64,000 nucleotides of DNA from Ornithodoros turicata. Its lineage: Eukaryota; Arthropoda; Arachnida; Ixodida; Argasidae. Location of the stretch: positions 127,906,665-127,970,664 of the forward strand of contig NC_088201.1 of NCBI RefSeq assembly GCF_037126465.1, read 5' to 3'. The position numbers were made by a program, and so were the translations under genes. Shown here one piece after another: positions 1 through 63,216 of this stretch. Within the stretch, counting starts at the first letter, position 1; every line of letters begins with the position of its first letter. The notes under the pieces were generated by a model. It saw only the letters and a program-made list of their open reading frames with translations, was not told the DNA's origin and made no database searches.

Positions 1-3000
1 TCCGGAGCTTCGTGAAAATTAATGTGGAATACTGAGTCATTTCGTAGAGACTCACGCGTGTCTTTACTAAAGATTCGTCTCCCTCATAATGGTTTCTTGT
101 TGAAAACATGCGCGTATCTCCATGCATAACAGCTGAAGGAGTACATTTAATCACGAGAATTCCGGAGCTTCGTGAAAATTAATGCGGAATATTCAGTCAT
201 TTCGTAGAGGCTCACGCGTGTCTTTACTAAAGATTCGTCTTACTCATAAAGGTTTCTTGTTGAAAACATGCGTGTATCTCCATGCAGAACAGCTGAAGGA
301 GTACATTTAATCAGAAAAGTTCCAGAGCTCGTGCAAATTGATGTGGAATATTGAGTCATTTCGTTAGAGACTCACGCGTGTCTTTACTAGAGATTCGTCT
401 TACTCATAATGGTTTCCTGTTGAAAACATGCGTGTATCTCCATGCAGAACAGCTGAAGGAGTACATTTAATCACACGAATTCCGGAGCTTCGTGCAAATT
501 ATTGTGGAATACTGAGTCATTTCGTAGAGACTCATGCGTGTTTTTACTAAAGATTCGTCTTCCTCATAATCGTTTTCTTGTTGAAAACATACGTGTATCT
601 CCATGCAGAACATCTGAAGGAGTACATTTAATCACGAGAATTCCGGAGCTTCGTGAAAATTAATGTGGAATATTCAGTCATTTCGTAGAGACTCACGCGT
701 GTCTTTACTAGAGATTCGTCTCCCTCATAATGGTTTCTGTTGAAAACATGCGTGTATCTCCATGCAGAGCTGCTGAAGGAGTACATTTAATCACACGAAT
801 TCCGGAGCTTCGTGAAAATTAATGTGGAAACATTGAGTCATTTCGTAGAGACTCACGCGTGTCTTTACTAAAGATTCGTCTTACTCATAAAGGTTTCTTG
901 TTGAAAACATGCGTGTATCTCCATGCAGAACAGCTGAAGGAGTACATTTAATCAGAAAAGTTCCAGAGCTCGTGCAAATTGATGTGGAATATTGAGTCAT
1001 TTCGTAGAGACTCACGCGTGTCTTTACTAGAGATTCGTCTTACTCATAATGGTTTCCTGTTGAAAACATGCATGTATCTCCATGCAGAACAGCTGAAGGA
1101 GTACATTTAATCAGAAGAGTTCCGGAGCTTCGTGCAAATTATTGTGGAATACTGAGTCATTTCGTAGAGACTCATGCGTGTTTTTACTAAAGATTCGTCT
1201 TCCTCATAATCGTTTCTTGTTGAAAACATACGTGTATCTCCATGCAGAACATCTGAAGGAGTACATTTAATCACGAGAATTCCGGAGCTTCGTGAAAATT
1301 AATGTGGAATATTCAGTCATTTCGTAGAGACTCACGCGTGTCTTTACTAGAGATTCGTCTCCCTCATAATGGTTTCTTCTTGAAAACATGCGTGTATCTC
1401 CATGCAGAGCTGCTGAAGGAGTACATTTAATCACACGAATTCCGGAGCTTCGTGAAAATTAATGCGGAATATTCAGTCATTTCGTAGAGACTCACGCGTG
1501 TCTTTACTAGAGATTCGTCTCCCTCATAATGGTTTCTTGTTGAAAACATGCGTGTATCTCCATGCAGAGCTGCTGAAGGAGTACATTTAATCACACGAAT
1601 TCCGGAGCTTCGTGAAAATTAATGTGGAATATTCAGTCATTTCGTAGAGACTCACGCGTGTCTTTACTAGAGATTCGTCTCCCTCATAATGGTTTCTTGT
1701 TGAAAACATGTGTGTATCTCCATGCAGAACAGCTGAAGGAGTACATTTAATCACACGAATTCCGGAGCTTCGTGCAAATTGATGTGAAATATTCAGTCAT
1801 TTCGTAGAGACTCACGCGTGTCTTTACTAGAGATTCGTCTTCCTCATAATCGTTTCTTGTTGAAAACATTCGTGTATCTCCATGCAGAACAGCTGAAGGA
1901 GTACATTTAATCACAAGAATTCCGGAGCTTCGTGAAAATTAATGTGGAATATTGAGTCAGTTCGTAGAGACTCACGCGTGTCTTTACTAGAGATTCGTCT
2001 TACTCATAATGGTTTCCTGTTGAAAACATGCATGTATCTCCGTGCAGAACAGCTGAAGGAGTACATTTAATCAGAAGAGTTCCGGAGCTTCGTGCAAATT
2101 ATTGTGGAATACTGAGTCATTTCGTAGAGACTCATGCGTGTTTTTACTAAAGATTCGTCTTCCTCATAATCGTTTCTTGTTGAAAACATACGTGTATCTC
2201 CATGCAGAACATCTGAAGGAGTACATTTAATCACGAGAATTCCGGAGCTTCGTGAAAATTAATGTGGAATATTCAGTCATTTCGTAGAGACTCACGCGTG
2301 TCTTTACTAGAGATTCGTCTCCCTCATAATGGTTTCTTGTTGAAAACATGCGTGTATCTCCATCCAGAGCTGCTGAAGGAGTACATTTAATCACACGAAT
2401 TCCGGAGCTTCGTGCAAATTGATGTGGAATATTCAGTCATTTCGTAGACTCACGCGTGTCTTTACTAGAGATTCGTCTTCCTCATAATGGTTTCTTGTTG
2501 AAAACATGCGTGTATCTCCATGCAGAACAGCTGAAGGAGTACATTTAATCACAAGAATTCCGAGCTTCGTGAAAATTAATGTGGAATATTGAGTCAGTTC
2601 GTAGAGACTCACGCGTGTCTTTACTAGAGATTCGTCATACTCATAATGGTTTCCTGTTGAAAACATGCATGTATCTCCATGCAGAACAGCTGAAGGAGTA
2701 CATTTAATCAGAAGAGTTCCGGAGCTTCGTGTAAATTATTGTGGAATACTTAGTCATTTCGTAGAGACTCATGCGTGTTTTTACTAGAGATTCGTCTCCC
2801 TCATAATGGTTTCTTGTTGAAAACATGCGTGTATCTCCATGCAGAGCTGCTGAAGGAGTACATTTAATCACACGAATTCCGGAGCTTCGTGAAAATTAAT
2901 GTGGAACATTGAGTCATTTCGTAGAGACTCACGCGTGTCTTTACTAAAGATTCGTCTTACTCATAAAGGTTTCTTGTTGAAAACATGCGTGTATCTCCAT

Positions 3001-3551
3001 GCAGAACAGCTGAAGGAGTACATTTAATCACGAGAATTCCGGAGCTTCGTGAAAATTAATGCGGAATATTCAGTCATTTCGTAGAGGCTCACGCGTGTCT
3101 TTACTAGAGATTCGTCTCCCTCATAATGGTTTCTTGTTGAAAACATGCGTGTATCTCCATGCAGAACAGCTGAAGGAGTACATTTAATCACGAGAATTCC
3201 GGAGCTTCGTGAAAATTAATGCGGAATATTCAGTCATTTCGTAGAGACTCACGCGTGTCTTTACTAAAGATTCGTCTCCCTCATAATGGTTTCTTGTTGA
3301 AAACATGCGCGTATCTCCATGCATAACAGCTGAAGGAGTACATTTAATGACGAGAATTCCGGAGCTTCGTGAAAATTAATGCGGAATATTCAGTCATTTC
3401 GTAGAGGCTCACGCGTGTCTTTACTAGAGATTCGTCTCCCTCATAATGGTTTCTTGTTGAAAACATGCGTGTATCTCCATGCAGAACAGCTGAAGGAGTA
3501 CATTTAATCACGAGAATTCCGGAGCTTCGTGAAAATTAATGTGGAATGCTG

Positions 3552-6500
3552 AGTCATTTCGTAGAGACTCACGCGTGTCTTTACTAAAGATTCGTCTCCC
3601 TCATAATGGTTTCTTGTTGAAAACATGCGCGTATCTCCATGCATAACAGCTGAAGGAGTACATTTAATCACGAGAATTCCGGAGCTTCGTGAAAATTAAT
3701 GCGGAATATTCAGTCATTTCGTAGAGGCTCACGCGTGTCTTTACTAGAGATTCGTCTCCCTCATAATGGTTTCTTGTTGAAAACATGCGTGTATCTCCAT
3801 GCAGAACAGCTGAAGGAGTACATTTAATCACACGAATTCCGGAGCTTCGTGCAAATTATTGTGGAATACTGAGTCATTTCGTAGAGACTCATGCGTGTTT
3901 TTACTAAAGATTCGTCTTCCTCATAATCGTTTCTTGTTGAAAACATACGTGTATCTCCATGCAGAACATCTGAAGGAGTACATTTAATCACGAGAATTCC
4001 GGAGCTTCGTGAAAATTAATGTGGAATATTCAGTCATTTCGTAGAGACTCACGCGTGTCTTTACTAGAGATTCGTCTCCCTCATAATGGTTTCTTGTTGA
4101 AAACATGCGTGTATCTCCAAGCAGAGCTGCTGAAGGAGTACATTTAATCACACGAATTCCGGAGCTTCGTGAAAATTAATGTGGAACATTGAGTCATTTC
4201 GTAGAGACTCACGCGTGTCTTTACTAAAGATTCGTCTTACTCATAAAGGTTTCTTGTTGAAAACATGCGTGTATCTCCATGCAGAACAGCTGAAGGAGTA
4301 CATTTAATCAGAAAAGTTCCAGAGCTCGTGCAAATTGATGTGGAATATTGAGTCATTTCGTAGAGACTCACGCGTGTCTTTACTAGAGATTCGTCTTACT
4401 CATAATGGTTTCCTGTTGAAAACATGCATGTATCTCCATGCAGAACAGCTGAAGGAGTACATTTAATCAGAAGAGTTCCGGAGCTTCGTGCAAATTATTG
4501 TGGAATACTGAGTCATTTCGTAGAGACTCATGCGTGTTTTTACTAAAGATTCGTCTTCCTCATAATCGTTTCTTGTTGAAAACATTCGTGTATCTCCATG
4601 CAGAACAGCTGAAGGAGTACATTTAATCACAAGAATTCCGGAGCTTCGTGAAAATTAATGTGGAATATTGAGTCAGTTTGTAGAGACTCACGCGTGTCTT
4701 TACTAGAGATTCGTCTCCCTCATAATGGTTTCTTCTTGAAAACATGCGTGTATCTCCATGCAGAGCTGCTGAAGGAGTACATTTAATCACACGAATTCCG
4801 GAGCTTCGTGAAAATTAATGCGGAATATTCAGTCATTTCGTAGAGACTCACGCGTGTCTTTACTAGAGATTCGTCTCCCTCATAATGGTTTCTTGTTGAA
4901 AACATGCGTGTATCTCCATGCAGAGCTGCTGAAGGAGTACATTTAATCACACGAATTCCGGAGCTTCGTGAAAATTAATGTGGAATATTCAGTCATTTCG
5001 TAGAGACTCACGCGTGTCTTTACTAGAGATTCGTCTCCCTCATAATGGTTTCTTGTTGAAAACATGTGTGTATCTCCATGCAGAACAGCTGAAGGAGTAC
5101 ATTTAATCACGAGAATTCCGGAGCTTCGTGAAAATTAATGTGGAATATTCAGTCATTTCGTAGAGACTCACGCGTGTCTTTACTAGAGATTCGTCTCCCT
5201 CATAATGGTTTCTTGTTGAAAACATGCGTGTATCTCCATGCAGAGCTGCTGAAGGAGTACATTTAATCACACGAATTCCGGAGCTTCGTGAAAATTAATG
5301 TGGAACATTGAGTCATTTCGTAGAGACTCACGCGTGTCTTTACTAAAGATTCGTCTTACTCATAAAGGTTTCTTGTTGAAAACATGCGTGTATCTCCATG
5401 CAGAACAGCTGAAGGAGTACATTTAATCACACGAATTCCGGAGCTTCGTGCAAATTGATGTGGAATATTCAGTCATTTCGTAGAGACTCACGCGTGTCTT
5501 TACTAGAGATTCGTCTTCCTCATAATGGTTTCTTGTTGAAAACATGCGTGTATCTCCATGCAGAACAGCTGAAGGAGTACATTTAATCACAAGAATTCCG
5601 GAGCTTCGTGAAAATTAATGTGGAATATTGAGTCAGTTCGTAGAGACTCACGCGTGTCTTTACTAGAGATTCGTCATACTCATAATGGTTTCCTGTTGAA
5701 AACATGCATGTATCTCCATGCAGAACAGCTGAAGGAGTACATTTAATCACAAGAATTCCGGAGCTTCGTGAAAATTAATGTGGAATATTGAGTCAGTTTG
5801 TAGAGACTCACGCGTGTCTTTACTAGAGATTCGTCTCCCTCATAATGGTTTCTTCTTGAAAACATGCGTGTATCTCCATGCAGAGCTGCTGAAGGAGTAC
5901 ATTTAATCACACGAATTCCGGAGCTTCGTGAAAATTAATGCGGAATATTCAGTCATTTCGTAGAGACTCACGCGTGTCTTTACTAGAGATTCGTCTCCCT
6001 CATAATGGTTTCTTGTTGAAAACATGCGTGTATCTCCATGCAGAGCTGCTGAAGGAGTACATTTAATCACACGAATTCCGGAGCTTCGTGAAAATTAATG
6101 TGGAATATTCAGTCATTTCGTAGAGACTCACGCGTGTCTTTACTAGAGATTCGTCTCCCTCATAATGGTTTCTTGTTGAAAACATGTGTGTATCTCCATG
6201 CAGAACAGCTGAAGGAGTACATTTAATCACGAGAATTCCGGAGCTTCGTGAAAATTAATGTGGAATATTCAGTCATTTCGTAGAGACTCACGCGTGTCTT
6301 TACTAGAGATTCGTCTCCCTCATAATGGTTTCTTGTTGAAAACATGCGTGTATCTCCATGCAGAGCTGCTGAAGGAGTACATTTAATCACACGAATTCCG
6401 GAGCTTCGTGAAAATTAATGTGGAACATTGAGTCATTTCGTAGAGACTCACGCGTGTCTTTACTAAAGATTCGTCTTACTCATAAAGGTTTCTTGTTGAA

Positions 6501-8989
6501 AACATGCGTGTATCTCCATGCAGAACAGCTGAAGGAGTACATTTAATCACACGAATTCCGGAGCTTCGTGCAAATTGATGTGGAATATTCAGTCATTTCG
6601 TAGAGACTCACGCGTGTCTTTACTAGAGATTCGTCTTCCTCATAATGGTTTCTTGTTGAAAACATGCGTGTATCTCCATGCAGAACAGCTGAAGGAGTAC
6701 ATTTAATCACAAGAATTCCGGAGCTTCGTGAAAATTAATGTGGAATATTGAGTCAGTTCGTAGAGACTCACGCGTGTCTTTACTAGAGATTCGTCATACT
6801 CATAATGGTTTCCTGTTGAAAACATGCATGTATCTCCATGCAGAACAGCTGAAGGAGTACATTTAATCAGAACAGTTCCGGAGCTTCGTGTAAATTATTG
6901 TGGAATACTTAGTCATTTCGTAGAGACTCATGCGTGTTTTTACTAGAGATTCGTCTCCCTCATAATGGTTTCTTGTTGAAAACATGCGTGTATCTCCATG
7001 CAGAGCTGCTGAAGGAGTACATTTAATCACACGAATTCCGGAGCTTCGTGAAAATTAATGTGGAACATTGAGTCATTTCGTAGAGACTCACGCGTGTCTT
7101 TCCTAAAGATTCGTCTTACTCATAAAGGTTTCTTGTTGAAAACATGAGTGTATCTCCATGCAGAACAGCTGAAGGAGTACATTTAATCAGAAAAGTTCCA
7201 GAGCTCGTGCAAATTGATGTGGAATATTGAGTCATTTCGTAGAGACTCACGCGTGTCCTTACTAGAGATTCGTCTTACTCATAAAGGTTTCTTGTTGAAA
7301 ACATACGTGTATCTCCATGCAGAACATCTGAAGGAGTACATTTAATCACGAGAATTCCGGAGCTTCGTGAAAATTAATGTGGAATATTCAGTCATTTCGT
7401 AGAGACTCACGCGTGTCTTTACTAGAGATTCGTCTCCCTCATAATGGTTTCTTGTTGAAAACATGCGTGTATCTCCATGCAGAACAGCTGAAGGAGTACA
7501 TTTAATCACAAGAATTCCGGAGCTTCGTGAAAATTAATGTGGAATATTGAGTCAGTTCGTAGAGACTCACGCGTGTCTTTACTAGAGATTCGTCTTACTC
7601 ATAATGGTTTCCTGTTGAAAACATGCATGTATCTCCATGCAGAACAGCTGAAGGAGTACATTTAATCACAAGAATTCCGGAGCTTCGTGAAAATTAATGT
7701 GGAATATTGAGTCAGTTCGTAGAGACTCACGCGTGTCTTTACTAGAGATTCGTCTTACTCATAATGGTTTCCTGTTGAAAACATGCATGTATCTCCATAC
7801 AGAACAGCTGAAGGAGTACATTTAATCAGAAGAGTTCCGGAGCTTCGTGCAAATTATTGTGGAATACTGAGTCATTTCGTAGAAACTCATGCGTGTTTTT
7901 ACTAAAGATTCGTCTTCCTCATAATCGTTTCTTGTTGAAAACATACGTGTATCTCCATGCAGAACATCTGAAGGAGTACATTTAATCACGAGAATTCCGG
8001 AGCTTCGTGAAAATTAATGTGGAATATTCAGTCATTTCGTAGAGACTCACGCGTGTCTTTACTAGAGATTCGTCTCCCTCATAATGGTTTCTTGTTGAAA
8101 ACATGCGTGTATCTCCATGCAGAGCAGCTGAAGGAGTACATTTAATCACACGAATTCCGGAGCTTCGTGAAAATTAATGTGGAATATTGAGTCATTTCGT
8201 AGAGACTCACGCGTGTCTTTACTAAAGATTCGTCTTACTCATAAAGGTTTCTTGTTGAAAACATGCGTGTATCTCCAAGCAGAACAGCTGAAGGAGTACA
8301 TTTAATCAGAAAAGTTCCAGAGCTTCGTGCAAATTATTGTGGAATACTGAGTCATTTCGTAGAAACTCATGCGTGTTTTTACTAAAGATTCGTCTTCCTC
8401 ATAATCGTTTCTTGTTGAAAACATACGTGTATCTCCATGCAGAACATCTGAAGGAGTACATTTAATCACGAGAATTCCGGAGCTTCGTGAAAATTAATGT
8501 GGAACATTGAGTCATTTCGTAGAGACTCACGCGTGTCCTTACTAGAGATTCGTCTTACTCATAATGGTTTCCTGTTGAAAACATGCGTGTATCTCCATGC
8601 AGAACAGCTGAAGGAGTACATTTAATCACACGAATTCCGGAGCTTCGTGAAAATTAATGTGGAATATTGAGTCACTTCGTAGAGGCTCACGCGTGTCTTT
8701 ACTGGAGATTCGTCTTCCTCATAATCGTTTCTTGATGAAAACATGCGTGTATCTCCATGCAGAACAGCTGAAGGAGTACATTTAATCACAAGAATTCCGA
8801 AGCTTCGTGAAACTTAATGCGGAATATTGAGTCATTTTGTAGAGACTCACGCGTGTATTTACTAGAGATTCGTCTCCCTCATAATGGTTTCTTGTTGAAA
8901 ACATGCGTGTATCTCCATGCAGAACAGCTGAAGGAGTAAATTTAATCAGAAGAGTTCCGGAGCTTCGTGAAATATAATGTGGAATATTG
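3552..8989. repeat. Higher-order satellite block, copy A (34 monomers)
   Basis: This block is followed by a second version at 8990-13308. The offset is about 5,438-5,440 for the first half and about 4,318-4,320 after the internal 7-monomer duplication. Diagnostic variants occur in the same order in both: the CGCGTATC...GCATAACAG monomer, CCAAGCAGAGC, CTTTCCTAAAG, CATGAGTGTATC, the TTTACTGGAG monomer and the GAAACTTAATGC monomer. Confidence 0.85.
4621..6860. repeat. 1,120-bp tandem duplication of seven satellite monomers
   Basis: Bases 4621-5740 and 5741-6860 match at every line compared, with an exact offset of 1,120 (7 x 160). The order of private variants (TTCTTCTTGAAAAC, CATGTGTGTATC, GGAACATTG, TCGTCATACTC) is the same in both copies. 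A second copy of the locus around 10060-11180 has this block only once, so the duplication is recent and happened inside one larger repeat. Confidence 0.92.
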
Positions 8990-11900
8990 AGTCATTTCGT
9001 AGAGACTCACGCGTGTCTTTACTAAAGATTCGTCTCCCTCATAATGGTTTCTTGTTGAAAACATGCGCGTATCTCCATGCATAACAGCTGAAGGAGTACA
9101 TTTAATCACGAGAATTCCGGAGCTTCGTGAAAATTAATGCGGAATATTCAGTCATTTCGTAGAGGCTCACGCGTGTCTTTACTAGAGATTCGTCTCCCTC
9201 ATAATGGTTTCTTGTTGAAAACATGCGTGTATCTCCATGCAGAACAGCTGAAGGAGTACATTTAATCACACGAATTCCGGAGCTTCGTGCAAATTATTGT
9301 GGAATACTGAGTCATTTCGTAGAGACTCATGCGTGTTTTTACTAAAGATTCGTCTTCCTCATAATCGTTTCTTGTTGAAAACATACGTGTATCTCCATGC
9401 AGAACATCTGAAGGAGTACATTTAATCACGAGAATTCCGGAGCTTCGTGAAAATTAATGTGGAATATTCAGTCATTTCGTAGAGACTCACGCGTGTCTTT
9501 ACTAGAGATTCGTCTCCCTCATAATGGTTTCTTGTTGAAAACATGCGTGTATCTCCAAGCAGAGCTGCTGAAGGAGTACATTTAATCACACGAATTCCGG
9601 AGCTTCGTGAAAATTAATGTGGAACATTGAGTCATTTCGTAGAGACTCACGCGTGTCTTTACTAAAGATTCGTCTTACTCATAAAGGTTTCTTGTTGAAA
9701 ACATGCGTGTATCTCCATGCAGAACAGCTGAAGGAGTACATTTAATCAGAAAAGTTCCAGAGCTCGTGCAAATTGATGTGGAATATTGAGTCATTTCGTA
9801 GAGACTCACGCGTGTCTTTACTAGAGATTCGTCTTACTCATAATGGTTTCCTGTTGAAAACATGCATGTATCTCCATGCAGAACAGCTGAAGGAGTACAT
9901 TTAATCAGAAGAGTTCCGGAGCTTCGTGCAAATTATTGTGGAATACTGAGTCATTTCGTAGAGACTCATGCGTGTTTTTACTAAAGATTCGTCTTCCTCA
10001 TAATCGTTTCTTGTTGAAAACATTCGTGTATCTCCATGCAGAACAGCTGAAGGAGTACATTTAATCACAAGAATTCCGGAGCTTCGTGAAAATTAATGTG
10101 GAATATTGAGTCAGTTTGTAGAGACTCACGCGTGTCTTTACTAGAGATTCGTCTCCCTCATAATGGTTTCTTCTTGAAAACATGCGTGTATCTCCATGCA
10201 GAGCTGCTGAAGGAGTACATTTAATCACACGAATTCCGGAGCTTCGTGAAAATTAATGCGGAATATTCAGTCATTTCGTAGAGACTCACGCGTGTCTTTA
10301 CTAGAGATTCGTCTCCCTCATAATGGTTTCTTGTTGAAAACATGCGTGTATCTCCATGCAGAGCTGCTGAAGGAGTACATTTAATCACACGAATTCCGGA
10401 GCTTCGTGAAAATTAATGTGGAATATTCAGTCATTTCGTAGAGACTCACGCGTGTCTTTACTAGAGATTCGTCTCCCTCATAATGGTTTCTTGTTGAAAA
10501 CATGTGTGTATCTCCATGCAGAACAGCTGAAGGAGTACATTTAATCACGAGAATTCCGGAGCTTCGTGAAAATTAATGTGGAATATTCAGTCATTTCGTA
10601 GAGACTCACGCGTGTCTTTACTAGAGATTCGTCTCCCTCATAATGGTTTCTTGTTGAAAACATGCGTGTATCTCCATGCAGAGCTGCTGAAGGAGTACAT
10701 TTAATCACACGAATTCCGGAGCTTCGTGAAAATTAATGTGGAACATTGAGTCATTTCGTAGAGACTCACGCGTGTCTTTACTAAAGATTCGTCTTACTCA
10801 TAAAGGTTTCTTGTTGAAAACATGCGTGTATCTCCATGCAGAACAGCTGAAGGAGTACATTTAATCACACGAATTCCGGAGCTTCGTGCAAATTGATGTG
10901 GAATATTCAGTCATTTCGTAGAGACTCACGCGTGTCTTTACTAGAGATTCGTCTTCCTCATAATGGTTTCTTGTTGAAAACATGCGTGTATCTCCATGCA
11001 GAACAGCTGAAGGAGTACATTTAATCACAAGAATTCCGGAGCTTCGTGAAAATTAATGTGGAATATTGAGTCAGTTCGTAGAGACTCACGCGTGTCTTTA
11101 CTAGAGATTCGTCATACTCATAATGGTTTCCTGTTGAAAACATGCATGTATCTCCATGCAGAACAGCTGAAGGAGTACATTTAATCAGAAGAGTTCCGGA
11201 GCTTCGTGTAAATTATTGTGGAATACTTAGTCATTTCGTAGAGACTCATGCGTGTTTTTACTAGAGATTCGTCTCCCTCATAATGGTTTCTTGTTGAAAA
11301 CATGCGTGTATCTCCATGCAGAGCTGCTGAAGGAGTACATTTAATCACACGAATTCCGGAGCTTCGTGAAAATTAATGTGGAACATTGAGTCATTTCGTA
11401 GAGACTCACGCGTGTCTTTCCTAAAGATTCGTCTTACTCATAAAGGTTTCTTGTTGAAAACATGAGTGTATCTCCATGCAGAACAGCTGAAGGAGTACAT
11501 TTAATCAGAAAAGTTCCAGAGCTCGTGCAAATTGATGTGGAATATTGAGTCATTTCGTAGAGACTCACGCGTGTCCTTACTAGAGATTCGTCTTACTCAT
11601 AAAGGTTTCTTGTTGAAAACATACGTGTATCTCCATGCAGAACATCTGAAGGAGTACATTTAATCACGAGAATTCCGGAGCTTCGTGAAAATTAATGTGG
11701 AATATTCAGTCATTTCGTAGAGACTCACGCGTGTCTTTACTAGAGATTCGTCTCCCTCATAATGGTTTCTTGTTGAAAACATGCGTGTATCTCCATGCAG
11801 AACAGCTGAAGGAGTACATTTAATCACAAGAATTCTGGAGCTTCGTGAAAATTAATGTGGAATATTGAGTCAGTTCGTAGAGACTCACGCGTGTCTTTAC

Positions 11901-13308
11901 TAGAGATTCGTCTTACTCATAATGGTTTCCTGTTGAAAACATGCATGTATCTCCATGCAGAACAGCTGAAGGAGTACATTTAATCACAAGAATTCCGGAG
12001 CTTCGTGAAAATTAATGTGGAATATTGAGTCAGTTCGTAGAGACTCACGCGTGTCTTTACTAGAGATTCGTCTTACTCATAATGGTTTCCTGTTGAAAAC
12101 ATGCATGTATCTCCATGCAGAACAGCTGAAGGAGTACATTTAATCAGAAGAGTTCCGGAGCTTCATGCAAATTATTGTGGAATACTGAGTCATTTCGTAG
12201 AAACTCATGCGTGTTTTTACTAAAGATTCGTCTTCCTCATAATCGTTTCTTGTTGAAAACATACGTGTATCTCCATGCAGAACATCTGAAGGAGTACATT
12301 TAATCACGAGAATTCCGGAGCTTCGTGAAAATTAATGTGGAATATTCAGTCATTTCGTAGAGACTCACGCGTGTCTTTACTAGAGATTCGTCTCCCTCAT
12401 AATGGTTTCTTGTTGAAAACATGCGTGTATCTCCATGCAGAGCAGCTGAAGGAGTACATTTAATCACACGAATTCCGGAGCTTCGTGAAAATTAATGTGG
12501 AATATTGAGTCATTTCGTAGAGACTCACGCGTGTCTTTACTAAAGATTCGTCTTACTCATAAAGGTTTCTTGTTGAAAACATGCGTGTATCTCCAAGCAG
12601 AACAGCTGAAGGAGTACATTTAATCAGAAAAGTTCCAGAGCTTCGTGCAAATTATTGTGGAATACTGAGTCATTTCGTAGAAACTCATGCGTGTTTTTAC
12701 TAAAGATTCGTCTTCCTCATAATCGTTTCTTGTTGAAAACATACGTGTATCTCCATGCAGAACATCTGAAGGAGTACATTTAATCACGAGAATTCCGGAG
12801 CTTCGTGAAAATTAATGTGGAACATTGAGTCATTTCGTAGAGACTCACGCGTGTCCTTACTAGAGATTCGTCTTACTCATAATGGTTTCCTGTTGAAAAC
12901 ATGCGTGTATCTCCATGCAGAACAGCTGAAGGAGTACATTTAATCACACGAATTCCGGAGCTTCGTGAAAATTAATGTGGAATATTGAGTCACTTCGTAG
13001 AGGCTCACGCGTGTCTTTACTGGAGATTCGTCTTCCTCATAATCGTTTCTTGATGAAAACATGCGTGTATCTCCATGCAGAACAGCTGAAGGAGTACATT
13101 TAATCACAAGAATTCCGAAGCTTCGTGAAACTTAATGCGGAATATTGAGTCATTTTGTAGAGACTCACGCGTGTATTTACTAGAGATTCGTCTCCCTCAT
13201 AATGGTTTCTTGTTGAAAACATGCGTGTATCTCCATGCAGAACAGCTGAAGGAGTAAATTTAATCAGAAGAGTTCCGGAGCTTCGTGAAATATAATGTGG
13301 AATATTGA
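8990..13308. repeat. Higher-order satellite block, copy B (27 monomers)
   Basis: Direct partner of the block at 3552-8989, shorter by seven monomers because it lacks the 1,120-bp duplication. A third partial copy follows at about 13740-14760, repeating the monomer series seen at about 12140-13300 with one monomer missing. Confidence 0.85.
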
Positions 13309-15029
13309 GTCATTTCGTAGAGACTCACGCGTGTCTTTACTAGAGATTCGTCTTACTCATTAAGGTTTCTTGTTGAAAACATGCGTGTATCTCCATGCAG
13401 AACAGCTGAAGGAGTACATTTAATCAGAAAAGTTCCAGAGCTCGTGCAAATTGATGTGAAATATTGAGTGATTTCGTAGAGACTCACGCGTGTCTTTACT
13501 AGAGATTCGTCTTACTCATAATGGTTTCCTGTTGAAAACATGCATGTATCTCCAAGCAGAACAGCTGAAGGAGTACATTTAATCAGAACAGTTCCGGAGC
13601 TTCGTGCAAATTATTGTGGAATACTGAGTCATTTTGTAGAGACTCATGCGTGTTTTTACTAAAGGTTCGTCTTACTCATAATGGTTTCTTGTTGAAAACA
13701 TGCATGTATCTCCATGCAGAACAGCTGAAGGAGTACATTTAATCAGAAGAGTTCCGGAGCTTCGTGCAAATTATTGTGGAATACTGAGTCATTTCGTAGA
13801 GACTCATGCGTGTTTTTACTAAAGATTCGTCTTCCTCATAATCGTTTCTTGTTGAAAACATACGTGTATCTCCATGCAGAACATCTGAAGGAGTACATTT
13901 AATCACGAGTATTCCGGAGCTTCGTGAAAATTAATGTGGAATATTCAGTCATTTCGTAGAGACTCACGCGTGTCTTTACTAGAGATTCGTCTCCCTCATA
14001 ATGGTTTCTTGTTGAAAACATGCGTGTATCTCCATGCAGAGCAGCTGAAGGAGTACATTTAATCACACGAATTCCGGAGCTTCGTGAAAATTAATGTGGA
14101 ATATTGAGTCATTTCGTAGAGACTCACGCGTGTCTTTACTAAAGATTCGTCTTACTCATAAAGGTTTCTTGTTGAAAACATGCGTGTATCTCCAAGCAGA
14201 ACAGCTGAAGGAGTACATTTAATCAGAAAAGTTCCAGAGCTCGTGCAAATTGATGTGGAATATTGAGTCATTTCGTAGAGACTCACGCGTGTCCTTACTA
14301 GAGATTCGTCTTACTCATAATGGTTTCCTGTTGAAAACATGCGTGTATCTCCATGCAGAACAGCTGAAGGAGTACATTTAATCACACGAATTCCGGAGCT
14401 TCGTGAAAATTAATGTGGAATATTGAGTCACTTCGTAGAGGCTCACGCGTGTCTTTACTGGAGATTCGTCTTCCTCATAATCGTTTCTTGATGAAAACAT
14501 GCGTGTATCTCCATGCAGAACAGCTGAAGGAGTACATTTAATCACAAGAATTCCGGAGCTTCGTGAAACTTAATGCGGAATATTGAGTCATTTTGTAGAG
14601 ACTCACGCGTGTATTTACTAGAGATTCGTCTCCCTCGTAATGGTTTCTTGTTGAAAACATGCGTGTATCTCCATGCAGAACAGCTGAAGGAGTAAATTTA
14701 ATCAGAAGAGTTCCGGAGCTTCGTGAAATATAGTGTGGAATATTGAGTCATTTCGTAGAGACTCACGCGTGTCTTTACTAGAGATTCGTCTTACTCATAA
14801 TGGTTTCCTGTTGAAAACATGCATGTATCTCCATGCAGACCAGCTGAAGGAGTACATTTAATCGGAAGAGTTCCGGAGCTTCGTGCAAATTATTGTGGAA
14901 TACTGAGTCATTTCGTAGAGACTCATGCGTGTTTTTACTAAAGGTTCGTCTTACTCATAATGGTTTCTTGTTGAAAACATGCGTGTATCTCCATGCAGAA
15001 CAGCTGAAGGAGTACATTGAACCACAAGA

Positions 15030-16266: not shown

Positions 16267-16274
16267 CTCGAAGC

Positions 16275-16313
16275 TACAGTCACTATATAAGCTTACGCTT
16301 ACAGTATCGACAC
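16275..16313 (+). repeat. Left terminal inverted repeat of P-like element
   Basis: 39 bp; the reverse complement of 21510-21547 apart from a one-base indel. It contains TATATAAG, which could act as a TATA box for the transposase gene starting about 190 bp downstream; that role is inference. Confidence 0.93.
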
Positions 16314-16481
16314 GCTTTTCCCCTATTCAAGATTCCGCTCCGGGCGCCCATTCGCTCTGAGAGATCACGTGATCTGGTGCGTGCCGTGTGCTTAGCCGTG
16401 GACGCTGCCTTTTTGTTGCTCGAAGCTGCTGCCGTGATTTCGCCGTTTTGTATGCGTTTTTAAGGCTTAGTAGTCCGCGAA

Positions 16482-17333
16482 ATGCCGTGTTGCGCGGCTC
16501 TTTACTGTAAAAACAGCACAGCGAAAGGCCATACGCTCTTCAGGTTTCCCCTAGGAAAGCGAGATGGTCAACGTTTCGAGGCGTGGCTTCGAATCGTGAA
16601 CAGGAAGGATTTCCAAGTTACAGGACATTCGAGGCTTTGTCAGGTATGTATATTTCATCTTATCAGCAGTATGTTGCCACTGTTCAACCTAAGTACGTTC
16701 TCCCGCGTTGTAACCACCGAGCTACTGCTTTAAATCAATTCCCTTTTGAAGCGGGGCGTAGTCGGACGACAGCCGTTCTTGAAACGTAACTTGCAGAAGC
16801 ATGTTTTCTTCTTTTTCTGTGTCGTTTTCAGAAAACTTCCCTCCGATTAGAGCGTGCCCGCGGTGAACTTTGTCATATCCCCGCGCGTGCTAAACGTAAA
16901 ATGCCAGATAGGTACCTTTCCCGTCTCAGCCGTCCCATCGCAATTGTTATGTATAAGCAAGCGCCTTGCACGTCGGTCTTGAGTGTACATGCACAAGAAC
17001 AGCTTCTGTGTGTGCGTTTGTGTACGTTGTAACATCCTCCCCTAACGGTGTAGGTACTGGGCCTCTTCCATAATGACACCTGCATGTTACCATGTTACCA
17101 AACATCTAGCATTGCACACCTTTTAGATAAGAATGAGATCTGCTACAACGTTTACGGTTCCCTTTTGTAGCACCATTTCGAGCCGGAGCAATTCCAGAAA
17201 GGCAGAGCTGACGGCAGGCTATTCCTTCTCTGGAATGCCATTCCCACGATACCCGGGACAGACATGAGTGGAAGGAAGTGCAGTAATAAGCGTCCAAGGA
17301 GCCCATCCCTGCCACCACTCACAGGACCAACAG
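16482..17333 (+). CDS. THAP DNA-binding domain encoded by two spliced exons
   Basis: Exon 1 (16482-16643, 54 codons, ATG start) gives MPCCAALYCKNS..., then LFRFPLGK, and ends in RLCQ at a CAG/GTATGT donor in phase 0. Exon 2 (17171-17333), after a TTTTGTAG acceptor, continues HHFEPEQFQKGRADG and LLWNAIPTIP, then a basic stretch with KRPR. Joined, the zinc ligands are Cys-x4-Cys near residue 4/9 and Cys-x2-His at the junction, followed by the conserved AVPT-like box (NAIPT). This is a canonical C2CH THAP finger, used by P transposases to bind their own DNA. The intron is 527 bp. Reading straight through exon 1 without splicing destroys the finger, which supports the splice model. Confidence 0.88.
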
Positions 17334-17606
17334 GTATAGCTATGTGCTGCTATCATTAACCTTTCTAATATAAAATCAATGTCAAATGATCAAAAATGTG
17401 TTCTACAAACTTTAAACAATATCTCTCAGCAGCTCTGTCATCAGCTGTCGGAACTGCACAGACTGGTACCATTGATGATGACGAGGTGGGGGAGCCATTG
17501 ATGCATTGTAATAGGTTTCTGGATGACGTTTCATCATCACATGATGGTAAGAAGCATGCAACCTGTCACACCGCAACATCTTAATGTGAACAATACTGTC
17601 TTACAG

Positions 17607-17913
17607 CATGTCCCTTAATGGTTGAGGAGCCTATTACACTACAAGAAGTCACGGAAGTCACCGTCCCCACCAGCGGTAAGAAATTATCATCCCTATGGAA
17701 TGAACGGCATGTAAAACTATTTGGATCTCTTTGCAGCGGAAGACGAGTTGTTTCAGCAGCTTCCTGTTGTTTGTACAGTCACCGTCTCCACCAGCGGTGA
17801 GAAATTATTATCATTATGGAATGAACCGCATGTAAGACTATTGGATCTCTTTGCAGCACAAGACGAGCTTCAGAAGCTTCCAGCTGTTTGTGCAGCCACT
17901 GCCTCCACCAGCG
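17607..17913 (+). repeat. Tandemly duplicated exon-intron cassette within the transposase gene
   Basis: Three consecutive small exons (17607-17675, 17737-17796, 17857-17913; 69, 60 and 57 nt) end in the same CACCAGCG-type donor context. The introns after exons 1 and 2 are near copies, ending GGATCTCTTTGCAG. All exons are phase 1-1 and multiples of three, so each can be added or skipped without changing frame. Encoded ends are EVTEVTVPTS, VVCTVTVSTS and VCAATASTS. The repeat period is about 120 bp. It lies in the linker between the THAP finger and the catalytic region. Confidence 0.85.
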
Positions 17914-18691
17914 GTAAGAGATTGTTATCATTATAGAATGAGCCGCGGTGAACATTTCCTTCTCTGCTTTTCTTCCATTCAAAAGTTTGCTTTACAGCTG
18001 CTTCAATGGAAGTGGAGCACATACTGCTCATCGACCCTACATCCGCTAGTGCCGACAAAGATGACGCATCATTGTCACTGAACTCGTCGACAGTTTCGGT
18101 CGAAGATGGCTATGTGCCCCCAAGTCATGAACGGCTATTCTGTGGTGGGAAACCATGCGAGCACGAGCTTCAAATCGTTGACTTGCGACGGCGTCTCAAT
18201 AGTGCTCTAAAGAAAGTCCGCCAAATGGAAAAGAAAATGAAAACCCTGGAGAGTGAGCACCTTCCCACCTTTCTTATGCTAACCCGTTCGTGTGGCGGTA
18301 CAACAATTTTCATTATCTTGATCCCTTTCCAGAGGACCCAAGGACATTCCTGTCCTCAGACCAGATTCGAAGTGTTGAAAATACAGACTCACGAGCTAAT
18401 CGGTACAACATTTATCCTCATTCTCCCCCTCAGTGTTTCAGAAGTGTAGAACCAGGGTTCAAGCTGCAATTTTTGTTCACAGTTGGGACGAGGCAACAGT
18501 GCTCAAGGCATTAAAGGCACGACTCGCGTGTGGCCGTGGAGGCTATGAGTTCGTGAAGGAGCACCTCATGCCGCTTCCTTCTGAACGAACCTTGCAAAGG
18601 AAGATTGAAAACGTGAAGTTTGGACCAGGTACATGACTAAAACAACAAATCACAGTTGTTCTTGATGATGTATTTGTCGTGCTTCTCCTAG

Positions 18692-19346
18692 GTATTCTGG
18701 AAGAGCTTCTACCAGCTCTGAAGGTCAAGCTGGAACAAATGCGTCCTCAGAAACGACGTTGTGCTGTCCTCCTTGATGAGATGCAACTAACTCCAGGCCT
18801 TGATTTTGACCCGACGCAAAAAGTTGTCATTGGGCAGGCAACAGCACCACTGGCGAACCATGCCGCTAAAGATCCGTCTTTGGCAACGCATGGTCTTGTT
18901 ATCATGTTAGCAGGACTTTCATCTCGGTGGAAGCAAGTCATTGCATAGCATTTGTCAGGTTTGTTTGTTGCTGGCAAGTCCCCAGTGAAAATCACAATGA
19001 CAAACTGTTCTCAATACCTCCAGGTGACTCGATTGACGGAACCTTCTTGAAGGATTTTGTCTTCCAAGTCATCAACAATTGTGAAGCAGTTGGAGCACGT
19101 GTCGACGCTGTGATGTCAGACATGGGCCCCAGCAACAAGGCGCTTTGGAAGCTCTGTGGCATAGGAGCTAGCAAGAATTTGGGTGCTAATGTATCCTGCT
19201 CCCACCCTTGTGACAATCAGCGAAAACTGTACTTTTTGGCTGATCCTCCACATGTCCTGAAAAACATTCGTGGCCATCTCGTAAGGGGACAGCATATCCG
19301 CCTGCCAATGGATGTTGTTAAAGCTGAAAACCTCCCAACTGATGAG
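18692..19346 (+). CDS. Catalytic exons of P-like transposase (DEMQL to DPPH region)
   Basis: Exon 18692-18958 encodes LLDEMQLTPGLDFDP and SSRWKQVIA, then TAG, then HLS. It splices over 18959-19023 to exon 19024-19346, which starts GDSIDGTFLKDFVFQV. The joined reading around the stop matches the usual VI(A/G)YH(F/L)(T/S)G segment, so the TAG looks like a Tyr codon mutated to a stop. The second exon carries MSDMGPSNKALWKLCGI and the FLADPPHVLKNIRGHL motif placed where P transposases bind GTP. Phases (1 and 1) agree across the junction. Confidence 0.82.
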
Positions 19347-19437
19347 GTGAGTACACTCACGGACCCACTGAACCATGGCATTGCAAATGGCACTTTCTCT
19401 CCGGGTCTCAATACGACACACCAGACGTGTTGCAGAG

Positions 19438-20637
19438 ATTGACGCTGCACTTTACTTAAAACTGGCGCCCCACCTGAAGTTGCGCTATCTGGACCCAAGC
19501 CACTACGAGAAGATGAACGTTGCCTCTGCAGTGGCAGTGTTAAACCATGCCGTTGCAGCAGCAATTAGGGTTCTCGTTAACCTTGACCTGCTTGGGAAAG
19601 AATCCCTCAGTACAGCTTGGTTTCTGGAGCAGGTTGACAAGTGGTTCACATTGATGTCGTCGAGGTAAATTACCACCGGCATGAGTGAACTAAAAGAGAA
19701 CAAGCACAGAGATGCTGTGGCCTTCCTGGATAAATTTGCAGGACTGATGTCAACCATCACGATTCAGAAAGAAAACCAGAGCAGCTGCTTTAAACCAGTG
19801 CAGGCTGGTGTAATGGTGTCAACATACAGTGCAATTGCCCTACAGTCTTTCCTACTCAAGCAGCAGAACTTTAAATTTGTAATGCTGGGTAGGCTAAGTC
19901 AGGACGCCCTCGAAAACCTATTTTCTTGTGTTCGAGCGAAGAACCCCGTTCCTCGACCACTGGAGTTCAAGCTCACTTTGAGACTGATCATGCTCTCACA
20001 GTATTTCCGTCCGAGTAGAAAAGGCAGCTACAATATTAGCGACTGTGCAGACTTGCTGGAATTCGTGGAACTCAGAAAAGGTGTAGCGCAGGACACCATT
20101 CGTGACAGCACTAGGGACGGAGAAGATCAGCTCATTACCCCTGAACTTGATGATCCGACACCGATGGACGACGTAGAAGCTCAGTCACTATGCTATGTGG
20201 CGGGGTATGTTTCAAGAAGTGTTGCTTCTTGCTATAAGCTGAGCGACGCATGCAAGACCTTCTTAAACGAAGATTTAGTTGTGGACAACGACGACCTTCT
20301 GGGATTCAAGTCTTATTGCGGACCCAGTGAACGAAATCCACTCTGTCGACCATCCAAAAAAGTCATCAGTTTGCTGCAACATGCACATACAATATTCCGT
20401 CAGCAAGAACACAGGGTATTGAGCCTTTCAGTGCCAGCTCTCACCCAGGCCGTCTTGCAATCCGGGCTTCAACAATATCCCACGTGTCACAATATCGGAA
20501 AGAAACTTGTGGACAAATTTCTGACCCTGGGGATGCGGATTGCACTCAGGAAGATCAACAACAAGCCGAAGAATACATCATCAAAATGTGGCAGCAAGAG
20601 CGTAGCAATGCGAGTGCTCGCAGCCAACATAAAATGA
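19438..20637 (+). CDS. C-terminal exon of P-like transposase
   Basis: One reading frame from about 19425 through the stop at 20635-20637, interrupted only by TAA at 19666-19668. It encodes LKLAPHLKLRYLDPSHYEKM, WFTLMSSR, GRLSQDALENLFSCVRAKNP and the C-terminal CYVAGYVSRSV...C...C segment typical of P/THAP9 transposases. No intron is apparent after 19438. The frame before the TAA is the same as after it, so one substitution is the simplest explanation. Confidence 0.85.
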
Positions 20638-20932
20638 AGTGATCATCCTGAAGTATGGTTCCACCGCAAACAAAACACAAGGCCCTTTTCAGGGCCATCC
20701 CACTTGTTTACACAAGAGGCAGCACTGCGAATGATTGAAAACCCTCTCATCTGAGTAAAGGAAATAACACTTCCTTAAAACCACAATATTGAAACAAACA
20801 AGTAATGCTAATTTGCACACAGAAAAAAAGTGCAAAACCTTTGTGATGGTTGTTCAGAGTCTGGAACACATAATGGTGTGGGGGGCAAACAATACACACA
20901 AAATCCCACTCCCAGACTCCTGTGTTTCTCTC

Positions 20933-20938
20933 AATAAA
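20933..20938 (+). promoter_or_regulatory. Candidate polyadenylation signal AATAAA
   Basis: AATAAA about 295 bases past the transposase stop, followed by a poly-C/(CA) tract at 20949-20976. No closer hexamer is obvious. Use is inferred. Confidence 0.4.
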
Positions 20939-20948
20939 CATATTCCCC

Positions 20949-20976
20949 TCCCCCCCCCCCCCCCCACACACACACA
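20949..20976. repeat. Poly-C tract followed by (CA)n
   Basis: A run of about 18 C residues followed by CACACACACA, inside the 3' non-coding part of the P-like element. Confidence 0.9.
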
Positions 20977-21509
20977 TTCTCCGTACGTTATGTTTACTTG
21001 TTTGAGAAGTGGAATGTTTATTCTGCTGTAGGCCTATTTACACTGAAATTCGATTCGTCGCAGGTGCTTTCACGGCGCCGGCCGTGTACAATATTCGCTG
21101 TTACAGCCGCTTGCATTGAGGTATTCTACATTGACAATAAGGAAAGATAAGCGAAAGAATAAAAATGAAGCGCACTCCTGATTTTAATGCGTAACGGATG
21201 CAAACAATTTACACGGAACGAAACATAGCGAATTTACTTGAACAAGTTTTTGTGTGGATGCTATACTCCAGCAGCATGCGCACGAAATCTGTTTCATTCT
21301 TGTAAATTGTTTGAAAATAAGGGTTCATTAAAAGCAAGGCGCATTTTTCTCAAGGAAATACTAACGCGTATACGAGAGAGTCATATCCAGAGGCCGCGAC
21401 GCTGCGCCGACAACACAGGCTGCTCGCTCAGGAGGAAACGAAACGATACGGGGTCACGTGGCTGAGCCTCGAGCAACAAGATGGCAGCCGTGCTCCTGTA
21501 CGTAGTTCA

Positions 21510-21547
21510 GTGTCGATACTGTAGCGTAAGCTTATATAGTGACTGTA
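21510..21547 (-). repeat. Right terminal inverted repeat of P-like element
   Basis: 38 bp, ending GTGACTGTA, followed directly by the target duplication CTCGAAGC (21548-21555). Confidence 0.93.
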
Positions 21548-21827
21548 CTCGAAGCTATGGGGCGAACAAGGTCGCGCCCGAAGGGGGGATTACGATGATC
21601 CCTGAAAGGGATGCAACCTTGGGTTCTACTTTTCTTTCAATCGGAGTCAGCAAACAAGTGCACATTCGTGGAAACCGCCTCTCACCTTCCGATCTGTTTC
21701 GGTTTCGGTCTGTCTACCAACGTCATGATAACGTTTCTCGGGTAGAGGTTTATATACCAGAGATGGGGAAATTACTATACAAAGAGAACTCGTTTCCGCT
21801 TAAGTTAGAGTGCAACAAATCTAAGTT

Positions 21828-23063: not shown

Positions 23064-23840
23064 TTACTGCTGCTGTTCCTGCTGTGGTTCACTTTGAACC
23101 TCAGGGGCTTCAGATGAGGCCTCCCCCTGTGAGCCATAAAACATTGTGGTACAATACCATTCACAGAGGATGTACCTCAGCAGTCTTATGTACCACTGCA
23201 GATGTTGATGGCAGTGGCTCTGTGTCACTGTGAAAAATATAACATAATGTTGTGCCAAAAAGAATAAAGCAAGACTATGAGAGCCTAAAGCCGTTGATTC
23301 TTCTGATTCAAAATCCAGGTTGATATAATTGTCTTCAGTTTTATGACGTGGCATATTTGTCAGCTCTGGTTGTGATATGATGTACCCCTTAGCAGCAGCA
23401 GCAGCAGCAGCAGTAACTATCGGCACTGCCGCTTTTCCTCTTGAGGACACTTGAACCCCTCCTGCGAAGCCGGTCACCTTGTCCCAGCCAACTAGTGCCA
23501 TCACACGCTGATCGGTTCCAGACAGGAGGGATACAATGTCCACTGGTGCAGCACCTGGCCTAGGAGCAATGAAGCCACTGCTTCCTCCTGTTGCGTGCAT
23601 TTTTTTGGATATCTGCCTCGCTCTGTTTCTAACTCCGTAGCGCCAGTCCTTCCACAACTGCTGCAACCCCTTCCCATCCTTGTGGAGTGGCCCAACTGCG
23701 TTCAGATGGGCAGCAATGGTCTCCCACTGGGCTCTCCTTTGTGCCGCACTTTCTCCCTCGAGGAACGTCCTGTTGTTACACAACTGTGGCGATTCCTCGA
23801 GGACGCCTAACAAAAGAATATGTTGCTGATGTAACGCCAT
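23064..23840 (-). CDS. Myb/SANT-like DNA-binding protein fragment
   Basis: A 258-codon minus-strand frame. Residues about 5-80 (LLLGVLEESPQL..., QWETIAAHLNAVGP, LQQLWKDWRYGVRNRARQI) fit the Myb/SANT-like (Myb_DNA-bind_5/NAIF1-type) helix-turn-helix, with spaced Trp residues in QW, LW and DW. A poly-Ala run from a CAG repeat lies around residue 145, then low-complexity sequence. Such proteins occur as host transcription-factor-like genes and as the second protein of PIF/Harbinger transposons. No Harbinger nuclease is visible nearby, so carriage by a transposon is unproven. After roughly residue 190 the sequence looks non-conserved and may be intron; the true 3' end is uncertain. Confidence 0.6.
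   Translation of the reverse strand: MALHQQHILLLGVLEESPQLCNNRTFLEGESAAQRRAQWETIAAHLNAVGPLHKDGKGLQQLWKDWRYGVRNRARQISKKMHATGGSSGFIAPRPGAAPVDIVSLLSGTDQRVMALVGWDKVTGFAGGVQVSSRGKAAVPIVTAAAAAAAKGYIISQPELTNMPRHKTEDNYINLDFESEESTALGSHSLALFFLAQHYVIFFTVTQSHCHQHLQWYIRLLRYILCEWYCTTMFYGSQGEASSEAPEVQSEPQQEQQQ
23392..23412. repeat. CAG trinucleotide repeat
   Basis: Seven AGC/CAG units in the Myb-like reading frame, encoding poly-Ala on the minus strand. Replication slippage is the likely origin. Confidence 0.9.
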
Positions 23841-24595
23841 CTGTAAAAAAGGGGGAAACTATGCTATGCAGTGGACAAAAACAAAAAAGGGAATAGTCAT
23901 GCGTTTTAATTAAAAGTATTCTCCTGCCAGCCTGTGGTTTGTATCTGAGAGCTAATGCTAATCACTATTGAGCTACTTGCGAGCTCACACTCAGATATTC
24001 ATCCAATTTGTTTACAGTAAGTACAAAATCACATTGTGCACAAGTTTAATGCCAGCAAAATATTCCCAACTTCAGTCAGAAACTTAACATTAACGTTAAA
24101 CTTAACTCCTACAGACCAAGAACTTTGTCGTCATGAACACCGAAAGTCAGAACCCAAGGTAATTGAACTAAACTACGAGTAATGTGATACCACCTTGCTG
24201 TGAACTTTACTTACGTTGCACAACATCGTACATCGTCAGTTACTCACTCACAAACGATTTATGTAACTGGCTTGCACTTATCACGAAGATTTCGCTGTGG
24301 ATGTGAATGTCGATATGAAGCTACTATTATAGCATACGAAGTGCTCTGCGCTGTTATTGGTTAAGTTGACTTAAAAAGTTGCGGTACGGGTGAACACATT
24401 TTTCTGCAATAGAGCAGCACTTTATTTCTGAATGTCAACGAAAGAACATGTATGGTTTTCATTTTATTACATTTACTTCCAGCCTTATTGCTGTTCCAAG
24501 AGGCACCTGTTGTAGAGAGTTATTGCGGGTTCGCGGTTGGTTGTCGTGAGCCGCGATGCGCACTCATAAGATGGCGTTCCTTGCCATGCGGCGGC
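23841..24595. other. Unassigned sequence upstream of the Myb-like frame
   Basis: No coding region or element ends are recognised. It may contain the promoter and first exon of the minus-strand Myb-like gene, but no motif shows this. Confidence 0.4.
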
Positions 24596-52250: not shown

Positions 52251-52350
52251 TCCGGCTGCTGTCAGTTGCTCTCGGTTTCCTACAGATGAAAGATATGAAA
52301 CAGTTACAACTGGCAGTTGCCTGCCATGTAAGTACTAAGCTTTGTGTGTC

Positions 52351-62507: not shown

Positions 62508-63216
62508 TTACCATCCTTTGTTAACATACAGCATCATCGCCATCCTCAATGTCTCTGCACCCATTGACGAACGGTCGGGCCTCTGAACGTAACGCAGCTG
62601 GCTGAAGGTGCGCTCAACGTCACAACTCCCATTGGGGATACACAGTAAGCTCAGAGCTGCTGACCTCAGATTAGGGTACTTTGTGTTCTTCACCCAGTAT
62701 TCCATGATGCCCAGGCCATCATTTGTTGGGATGTCTTTCTTTAAGTACTGACAAAATTCTTCTTGCACAGATGCAGGGTCAGTTACAAGTGAAAAGAAGC
62801 TCAGGTGTGATTCAAACTGTTGGCTAGCAGCATGCTTCTGATGGGGGTCGAGGATCAAGGATTGCTTCCATGTTTCGTTCTGCGTCACTTGGCCCCTTTC
62901 AAGTGCTGTTAGGTTCCTCATGCATGTGGCATTCCATTTGTCAGTCAGAGCTCTGCAAAAGTCCGCTTTCAATTTACCATGCCGTGCCAACGCCACGTGC
63001 TCTCTGATGCGATCATAAGGCTTTTTTTTCTGGATCTGGCGAAATATCCAGGCAGCAGTACTTGCAGACCAACGTGAATTCCGCAGGTGTTTCACCGGAG
63101 TCCTGAAAAGCGTCCAGGCGCGCCTTCTTCTTAACCTCAAGATCTGAGTGCTCCCTCGCCCAGTCGTTAGCTGTCTTCTTTGGTCTGCCCATCAGGACAG
63201 CAGGCTTTGATCCCAA
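62508..63216 (-). pseudogene. Internally deleted hAT transposase
   Basis: N-terminal part (63216 down to about 63010): GRPKKTANDWAREHSDL, FTLVCKYCCLDISPD, the start of a BED-type zinc finger. About there the frame shifts to 62998-62508: IREHVALARHGKLKADFCRA, then a late core and the dimerisation block YWVKNTKYPNLRSAALSLLC, NGSCDVERTFSQLRYVQRPD, LRMAMMLYVNKGW. The central DDE catalytic region is missing, so it is a deletion derivative. Confidence 0.78.

Follow-up and report, generated by a model that had tools for sequence, protein, structure and literature searches.

Within the window, by which we mean the whole stretch of 64,000 nucleotides that was analysed, lies a complete P-like transposable element whose transposase gene carries three adjacent, similar short exons between the parts that encode the DNA-binding and the catalytic regions of the protein. 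The reading that we favour, and consider probable, is that the element, a dead copy from the P superfamily, has a linker encoded by symmetric phase 1-1 mini-exons, with a number of units that varies by exchange or slippage and a protein that tolerates the variation. The repeat formed by the three exons (cassettes A, B and C) is not due to chance, and the length of the linker changes in the DNA itself, via the number of cassettes. Judging from comparisons of sequence, the duplicated exons appear to be real and the pattern recurs in related elements.

Structure and state of the element

The P-like element occupies positions 16275-21547 of the window and is complete, with inverted termini and a flanking duplication of 8 bp, as follows:

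16267-16274, no strand: target site duplication, left copy, 8 bp, CTCGAAGC
16275-16313, plus strand: 39-nt 5' terminal inverted repeat, matching its 3' counterpart at 97%, with the initial 25 nt perfect
16404-16427, plus strand: 24-nt arm (88%) of the subterminal inverted repeat, 5' side
21465-21488, minus strand: 3' subterminal inverted repeat arm, from the repeat search
21510-21547, minus strand: 3' terminal inverted repeat, from the repeat search, pairing with 16275-16313
21548-21555, no strand: target site duplication, right copy, 8 bp, CTCGAAGC

An 8-bp target site duplication was confirmed by script in the window element and in three other copies (L012, L016 and L022). The sequence CTCGAAGC also occurs at 16419-16426, within the element's own 5' subterminal arm, for which chance and site preference are both possible.

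The transposase gene was modelled with 12 exons and 11 introns, which have GT and AG ends with the single exception of one non-AG acceptor. Outside the cassettes, its parts are:

16482-16643, plus strand: exon E1, opening part of the THAP domain, leaving in phase 0
17171-17333, plus strand: exon E2, end of the THAP domain, phase 0-1
17430-17546, plus strand: exon E3, linker, 117 nt, phase 1-1, AG/GT, open
17998-18252, plus strand: exon D, end of the linker and a helical (coiled-coil-like) stretch, 255 nt, phase 1-1; coiled coil recognised by eye
18333-18402, 18483-18628, 18692-18958 and 19024-19346, plus strand: exons of the RNase H N-terminal part, with an in-frame stop at 18946-18948
19405-20637, plus strand: last exon, to the stop codon; its acceptor is not AG, and the window copy has a stop at 19666-19668

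A start of the last exon at 19438 was replaced by 19405 after comparison with the related element L030, the acceptor being lost in the window copy; the Pfam scan and the search with the window protein used the shorter model, in which the last exon begins at 19438. Pfam matched the THAP domain PF05485 at residues 4-81 (48.5 bits, cut-off 23.9) and the P-type RNase H N-terminal domain PF21787 at residues 365-500 (88.9 bits), and the GTP-binding insertion PF21788 scored 23.8 bits, just below the curated cut-off of 24.8. The length is a multiple of three in six of the ten internal exons checked (E3, A, B, C, D and 18692-18958). The THAP domain, the type of RNase H, the termini and the 8-bp duplication identify the element as a member of the P superfamily, in agreement with an earlier note on this DNA. 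That note had recognised a P-like transposase and had located the cassettes between its regions for DNA binding and catalysis, and they do lie after THAP and ahead of the coiled-coil/RNase H part. The window copy of the transposon is dead because it contains two in-frame stops and has lost the acceptor ahead of the last exon. All three defects are private to it, being found in none of the 14, 16 and 16 other copies that cover the respective sites.

According to PMC7776569, the Drosophila P element has the same THAP domain and RNase H type, inverted repeats in both long terminal and subterminal form, and the 8-bp duplication, as well as the GTP-binding insertion, to which the window match falls just short of the cut-off. 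Its gene consists of four open reading frames with three introns, the third of which is subject to regulated retention, whereas the window element has twelve exons and a linker of duplicated symmetric exons. The P subfamilies of Anopheles gambiae, as far as the excerpt of PMC1562414 describes them, likewise have THAP, terminal repeats (27-31 bp) and the 8-bp duplication, but mostly three putative exons as opposed to twelve.

Elsewhere in the window, a satellite array at 1-15029 (period 160, 94 copies, 92% matches) ends about 1.2 kb ahead of the P-like element. A 264-aa open frame with a Myb/SANT-like domain (PF13873) lies at 23067-23858 on the minus strand, and a hAT C-terminal dimerisation region at 62511-63191, also on the minus strand. 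The 498-aa open frame at 48667-50160 (plus strand), with DDE_1, Tc5-type HTH and CENP-B_N domains, is presumably a pogo/Tigger-like transposase, and we take the 504-aa open frame at 50823-52334 (minus strand), with DDE_Tnp_1_7, to be a piggyBac-like one.

The cassettes and their number among copies in the same genome

The cassettes and the repeat that spans them are located as follows:

17607-17675, plus strand: cassette A, 69 nt, phase 1-1, AG/GT, open, with homologues in three distant subfamilies
17737-17796, plus strand: cassette B, 60 nt, phase 1-1, AG/GT, open
17857-17913, plus strand: cassette C, 57 nt, phase 1-1, AG/GT, open
17659-17946, plus strand: tandem repeat (TRF), period 117, 2.4 copies, 84% matches, score 390

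The earlier note had drawn the three cassettes as phase 1-1 multiples of three, with coordinates that proved right to the base, and its phase for the preceding exon E3 (117 nt, AG/GT, open) was correct as well. Its proposal of a tandem exon duplication is borne out by TRF and by the repeat search, which find adjacent similar exons together with copied intron sequence. The repeat search returned three 78-nt copies at spacings of 121 and 117, with 69%, 100% and 85% identity to the reference. B and C are clear copies of each other (85%); A resembles B at only 69% over the 78 nt, and what it has in common with B and C is its 3' part and the intron that follows, its 5' part being without recognisable copy. 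Among the introns, copied sequence makes up IA and IB and extends some 33 nt into IC, and the intron ahead of A is, by eye, unrelated. Whichever of E3, A, B and C are included or skipped (16 combinations), exon D remains in frame and free of stops, which supports the frame neutrality that had been claimed for the three cassettes.

A search of the same genome with 17547-17998 gave at least 28 matches, and the cassette units were found again in other stretches. Twenty of these (L009-L028) were compared with the window, making 21 copies. Three units are present in 14 of the 21 (the window and L009-L021), two in three copies (L024, L026 and L027) and four in two: L022 is made up of A, two B and C in this order, and L025 of A together with three B/C-type units and, apart from these, a partial piece. 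About ten units (A, eight B and C) are found in L023, in an array split by some 600 bp of other DNA, and L028 is mostly deleted, a piece of A remaining before the deletion. The insert in the expanded array of L023, at about 2843-3420 in gene orientation, has a TAAATAAATAAA tail and is possibly the end of a retroelement.

Common flanks are found in L011, L013, L015-L021 and L026, and the few flank bases available for L024 are those of L017 and L026. To judge from these flanks, L011, L013, L015-L021, L024 and L026 make up one segmental group with later unit loss, and the 21 copies therefore do not stand for 21 independent events. L010 and L014 have indels in common and look related to each other. 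Since the three-unit state is found with at least four different flanks (those of the window, L009, L012 and the segmental group), the source element of the window copy very likely carried three units, A, B and C. Copies without cassettes may exist among the further, uncompared same-genome matches to the last exon.

The exon reading extends from the window to the other copies, which the earlier note had named as the place where it could fail: in a tally of 67 cassettes from 20 copies (L028 omitted, the partial piece of L025 counted, positions entered by hand), the length is divisible by three in 64 and a stop is absent from 66. At the mapped place, AG is present in 59 and GT in 60 of the 67; four of the eight acceptor misses are B/C-type units of L025, in each of which an AG lies exactly 3 nt downstream, a shift that preserves the frame. 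The introns between cassettes measure 58-62 nt, with no regard to three. Between L009 and L025, which differ by few changes in cassette A, pN (0.096) exceeds pS (0.059).

Four of the eight B units of L023 have lost the donor, so that amplification in this copy continued in a broken array, and L024 and L026 each lost one unit after insertion. Both observations speak against a purely functional view and suggest tolerance of changes in unit number, and some of the variation is neutral, as part of it arose in broken copies.

Distant subfamilies and relatives in other species

A search with the last exon recovered further elements of the same genome that are about 66-70% identical. For three of them (L030, L032 and L034), the stretch from THAP to exon D was modelled by hand, and with exons picked for phase 1-1 each linker consists of six short, open phase 1-1 exons, all 18 of them multiples of three. 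Five of the six exons are equally long in L032 and L034 (87, 84, 57, 96 and 66 nt; the other has 63 vs 72 nt), whereas none of the five introns between their linker exons is of equal length. The element L030 is flanked by an 8-bp target site duplication, GTTCGCCT.

Cassette A has a homologue in L030, L032 and L034, as well as in L029 and L035, which closely resemble L030 and L034, respectively. In comparisons of this cassette between subfamilies, all five pairings computed gave a pN lower than pS. Homologues of B and C are not visible in L030, L032 and L034. L030 has a two-exon tandem duplication of its own (repeat lengths, 144 and 167 nt; spacings, 423 and 440), and to the eye exons e3a, e3b and e5 of L032 and L034 could be ancient copies of each other; in the repeat search, only the acceptor regions of e3b and e5 of L032 match (54 nt, 70%). 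Codon-position bias in the distant linker exons is a trend short of significance (p=0.078), and the pooled difference between pS (0.385) and pN (0.274) is mild, with e7 pointing the opposite way. By eye, a short hydrophobic-acidic motif (LMVIDPS and LLIDPTS are examples) recurs in e3a, e3b and e5 of L032/L034 and in exon D of the window; it bears a slight resemblance to a SUMO-interacting motif.

L031 is degraded. L033 is 89% identical in the last exon, and no N-terminal match was found within its 6-kb stretch. Three distant elements were also compared at the 3' end: L030 has a 38-nt perfect and L034 a 22-nt partial terminal inverted repeat, and no terminal inverted repeat was found between the L029 stretches. 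No convincing subterminal repeat was found in these three, in contrast to the window element.

In other species, the annotated protein closest to the window transposase is P0001 (LOC144162788) of the tick Haemaphysalis longicornis, with 50% identity over the full length, which makes a tick the probable host. P0001 has eight member sequences on one contig, which could be isoforms from splicing or else copies in tandem. There were two matches to the full window protein, 29 to the core region of P0001 and none to a query based on L030. When the sequences of the 29 relatives were scanned for internal repeats, clear tandem repeats on the N-terminal side of the catalytic part were found in seven, which are all seven of the Ixodes scapularis proteins (ISCGN_002567, 004303, 004304, 004305, 010287, 023199 and 031375), and no clear tandem repeats in the other 22, including two proteins each from Haemaphysalis, I. 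persulcatus, Amblyomma and Rhipicephalus. The repeat unit is 22 aa long in six of the seven (3, 4, 5, 5-6, 5-6 and 18 units) and 48 aa in one. The sequences stem from gene prediction and in several cases are fragments, and they were read at the level of the protein. The RNase H N-terminal Pfam domain is precomputed in four of the seven.

The Ixodes proteins thus have the same P-like core as the window transposase, and tandem repeats N-terminal of it, and differ in the units, which by eye are unlike each other and unlike the window cassettes; this dissimilarity suggests that they arose independently of the latter. Together with the duplication in L030 and the apparent ones in L032/L034, the pattern suggests that related elements duplicated segments of this kind repeatedly in the same place. 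The earlier note had called exon duplication inside a transposon gene unusual, a statement that needs qualifying, since the pattern recurs within the P-like family. In host genes, tandem exon duplication can yield alternative or mutually exclusive exons, and these too are adjacent similar exons with copied introns; what sets the window case apart is its location in a multicopy transposase gene, in which the number of units varies among copies. In the open-licence literature, judged by title and the start of the abstract, we found no report of exon duplication in a P-type transposase and no description of P elements of ticks, which is no proof of absence.

Origin and significance of the variable linker

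The process that we regard as probable would run as follows. The linker between THAP and the coiled-coil/RNase H part would be encoded by short phase 1-1 exons with short introns, presumably spliced as drawn, and one symmetric exon with one intron would form a self-contained, frame-neutral unit. Because each such unit is frame-neutral, unequal exchange or slippage between the repeats of about 117 bp could add or remove units and leave the protein unbroken. A flexible linker would tolerate the change in length, all cassettes would be included by default, and most of the variation would be tolerated rather than selected. A similar process probably operated in another subfamily of the same genome and, judging from the proteins, in Ixodes.

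Length or valency might instead be under selection, with no part for alternative splicing, the longer linker helping to bridge subterminal and terminal repeats or adding binding motifs. This is possible, although we think it somewhat unlikely. Zebrafish THAP9 (Pdre2) has an insertion of about 100 aa between THAP and the dimerisation domain that is predicted to be disordered and has been suggested to help reach remote repeats (PMC10983969, a preprint); the extra length is at the same place as in the window element, and the excerpt of the preprint makes no mention of a repeat or an exon array. Recurrence in the subfamilies and in Ixodes, and the exon lengths kept in the distant subfamilies, would also fit selection, but units change in broken copies and after insertion as well (L023, L024 and L026).

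Regulated splicing is a less attractive explanation, and to us an improbable one. The cassettes would be included alternatively, tuning the length of the linker much as splicing controls Drosophila P, and they do have a consensus-like donor and acceptor each, all 16 combinations being in frame; the eight P0001 sequences could be isoforms. However, duplicating a single symmetric exon is enough to explain frame neutrality, with no need for regulation, and length already varies in the DNA. The earlier note was right that splicing is a known control point in Drosophila P, but the form of that control, in the excerpt of PMC7776569, is retention of the third intron and not the skipping of cassettes.

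It is highly improbable that the cassettes are no exons at all but a non-coding minisatellite in one long intron (17547-17997) that resembles exons by accident. Splicing cannot be proved from sequence alone, tandem repeats of similar period are common, and the L023 array grew though donors were lost. On the other side, cassettes are divisible by three and open with the few exceptions given above, the homologue of A has kept its boundaries in three subfamilies, and between L032 and L034 it is the exon lengths, not the intron lengths, that are kept. We give next to no credence to one continuous repeat exon in which the short 'introns' between cassettes are coding, as IB (60 nt, open in phase, and so by itself no argument for splicing) would permit, because IA (61 nt) would shift the frame, I3 and IC have in-phase stops, unit introns of 58 nt (L022, first B) and 59 nt (L023) occur, and a donor and an acceptor stand at every cassette end.

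A more far-reaching idea, which we consider unlikely, is an 'exon accordion' in P elements of a probable tick lineage, a linker of symmetric phase-1 mini-exons through which a transposon could rapidly alter the reach from DNA-binding to catalytic part, units being gained or lost in the DNA and exons skipped in the RNA. It would serve to adjust transposition adaptively or to evade repression by the element's own dead copies. If extra length aids reach, as proposed for zebrafish THAP9, changes in unit number would have a purpose; the arrays of L023, L024 and L026 also change without one.

On the reading that we prefer, that of a tolerated array of symmetric mini-exons, the contrast with what is published in the excerpts on Drosophila and Anopheles is one between P elements with few introns and a P-type linker that grows and shrinks by exon duplication, apparently more than once in related lineages. 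With many copies in one genome, these elements amount to a natural experiment on how symmetric exons duplicate, and the copies would also inform on how far a transposase tolerates changes in its linker and on whether the length of the linker affects the recognition of the ends.
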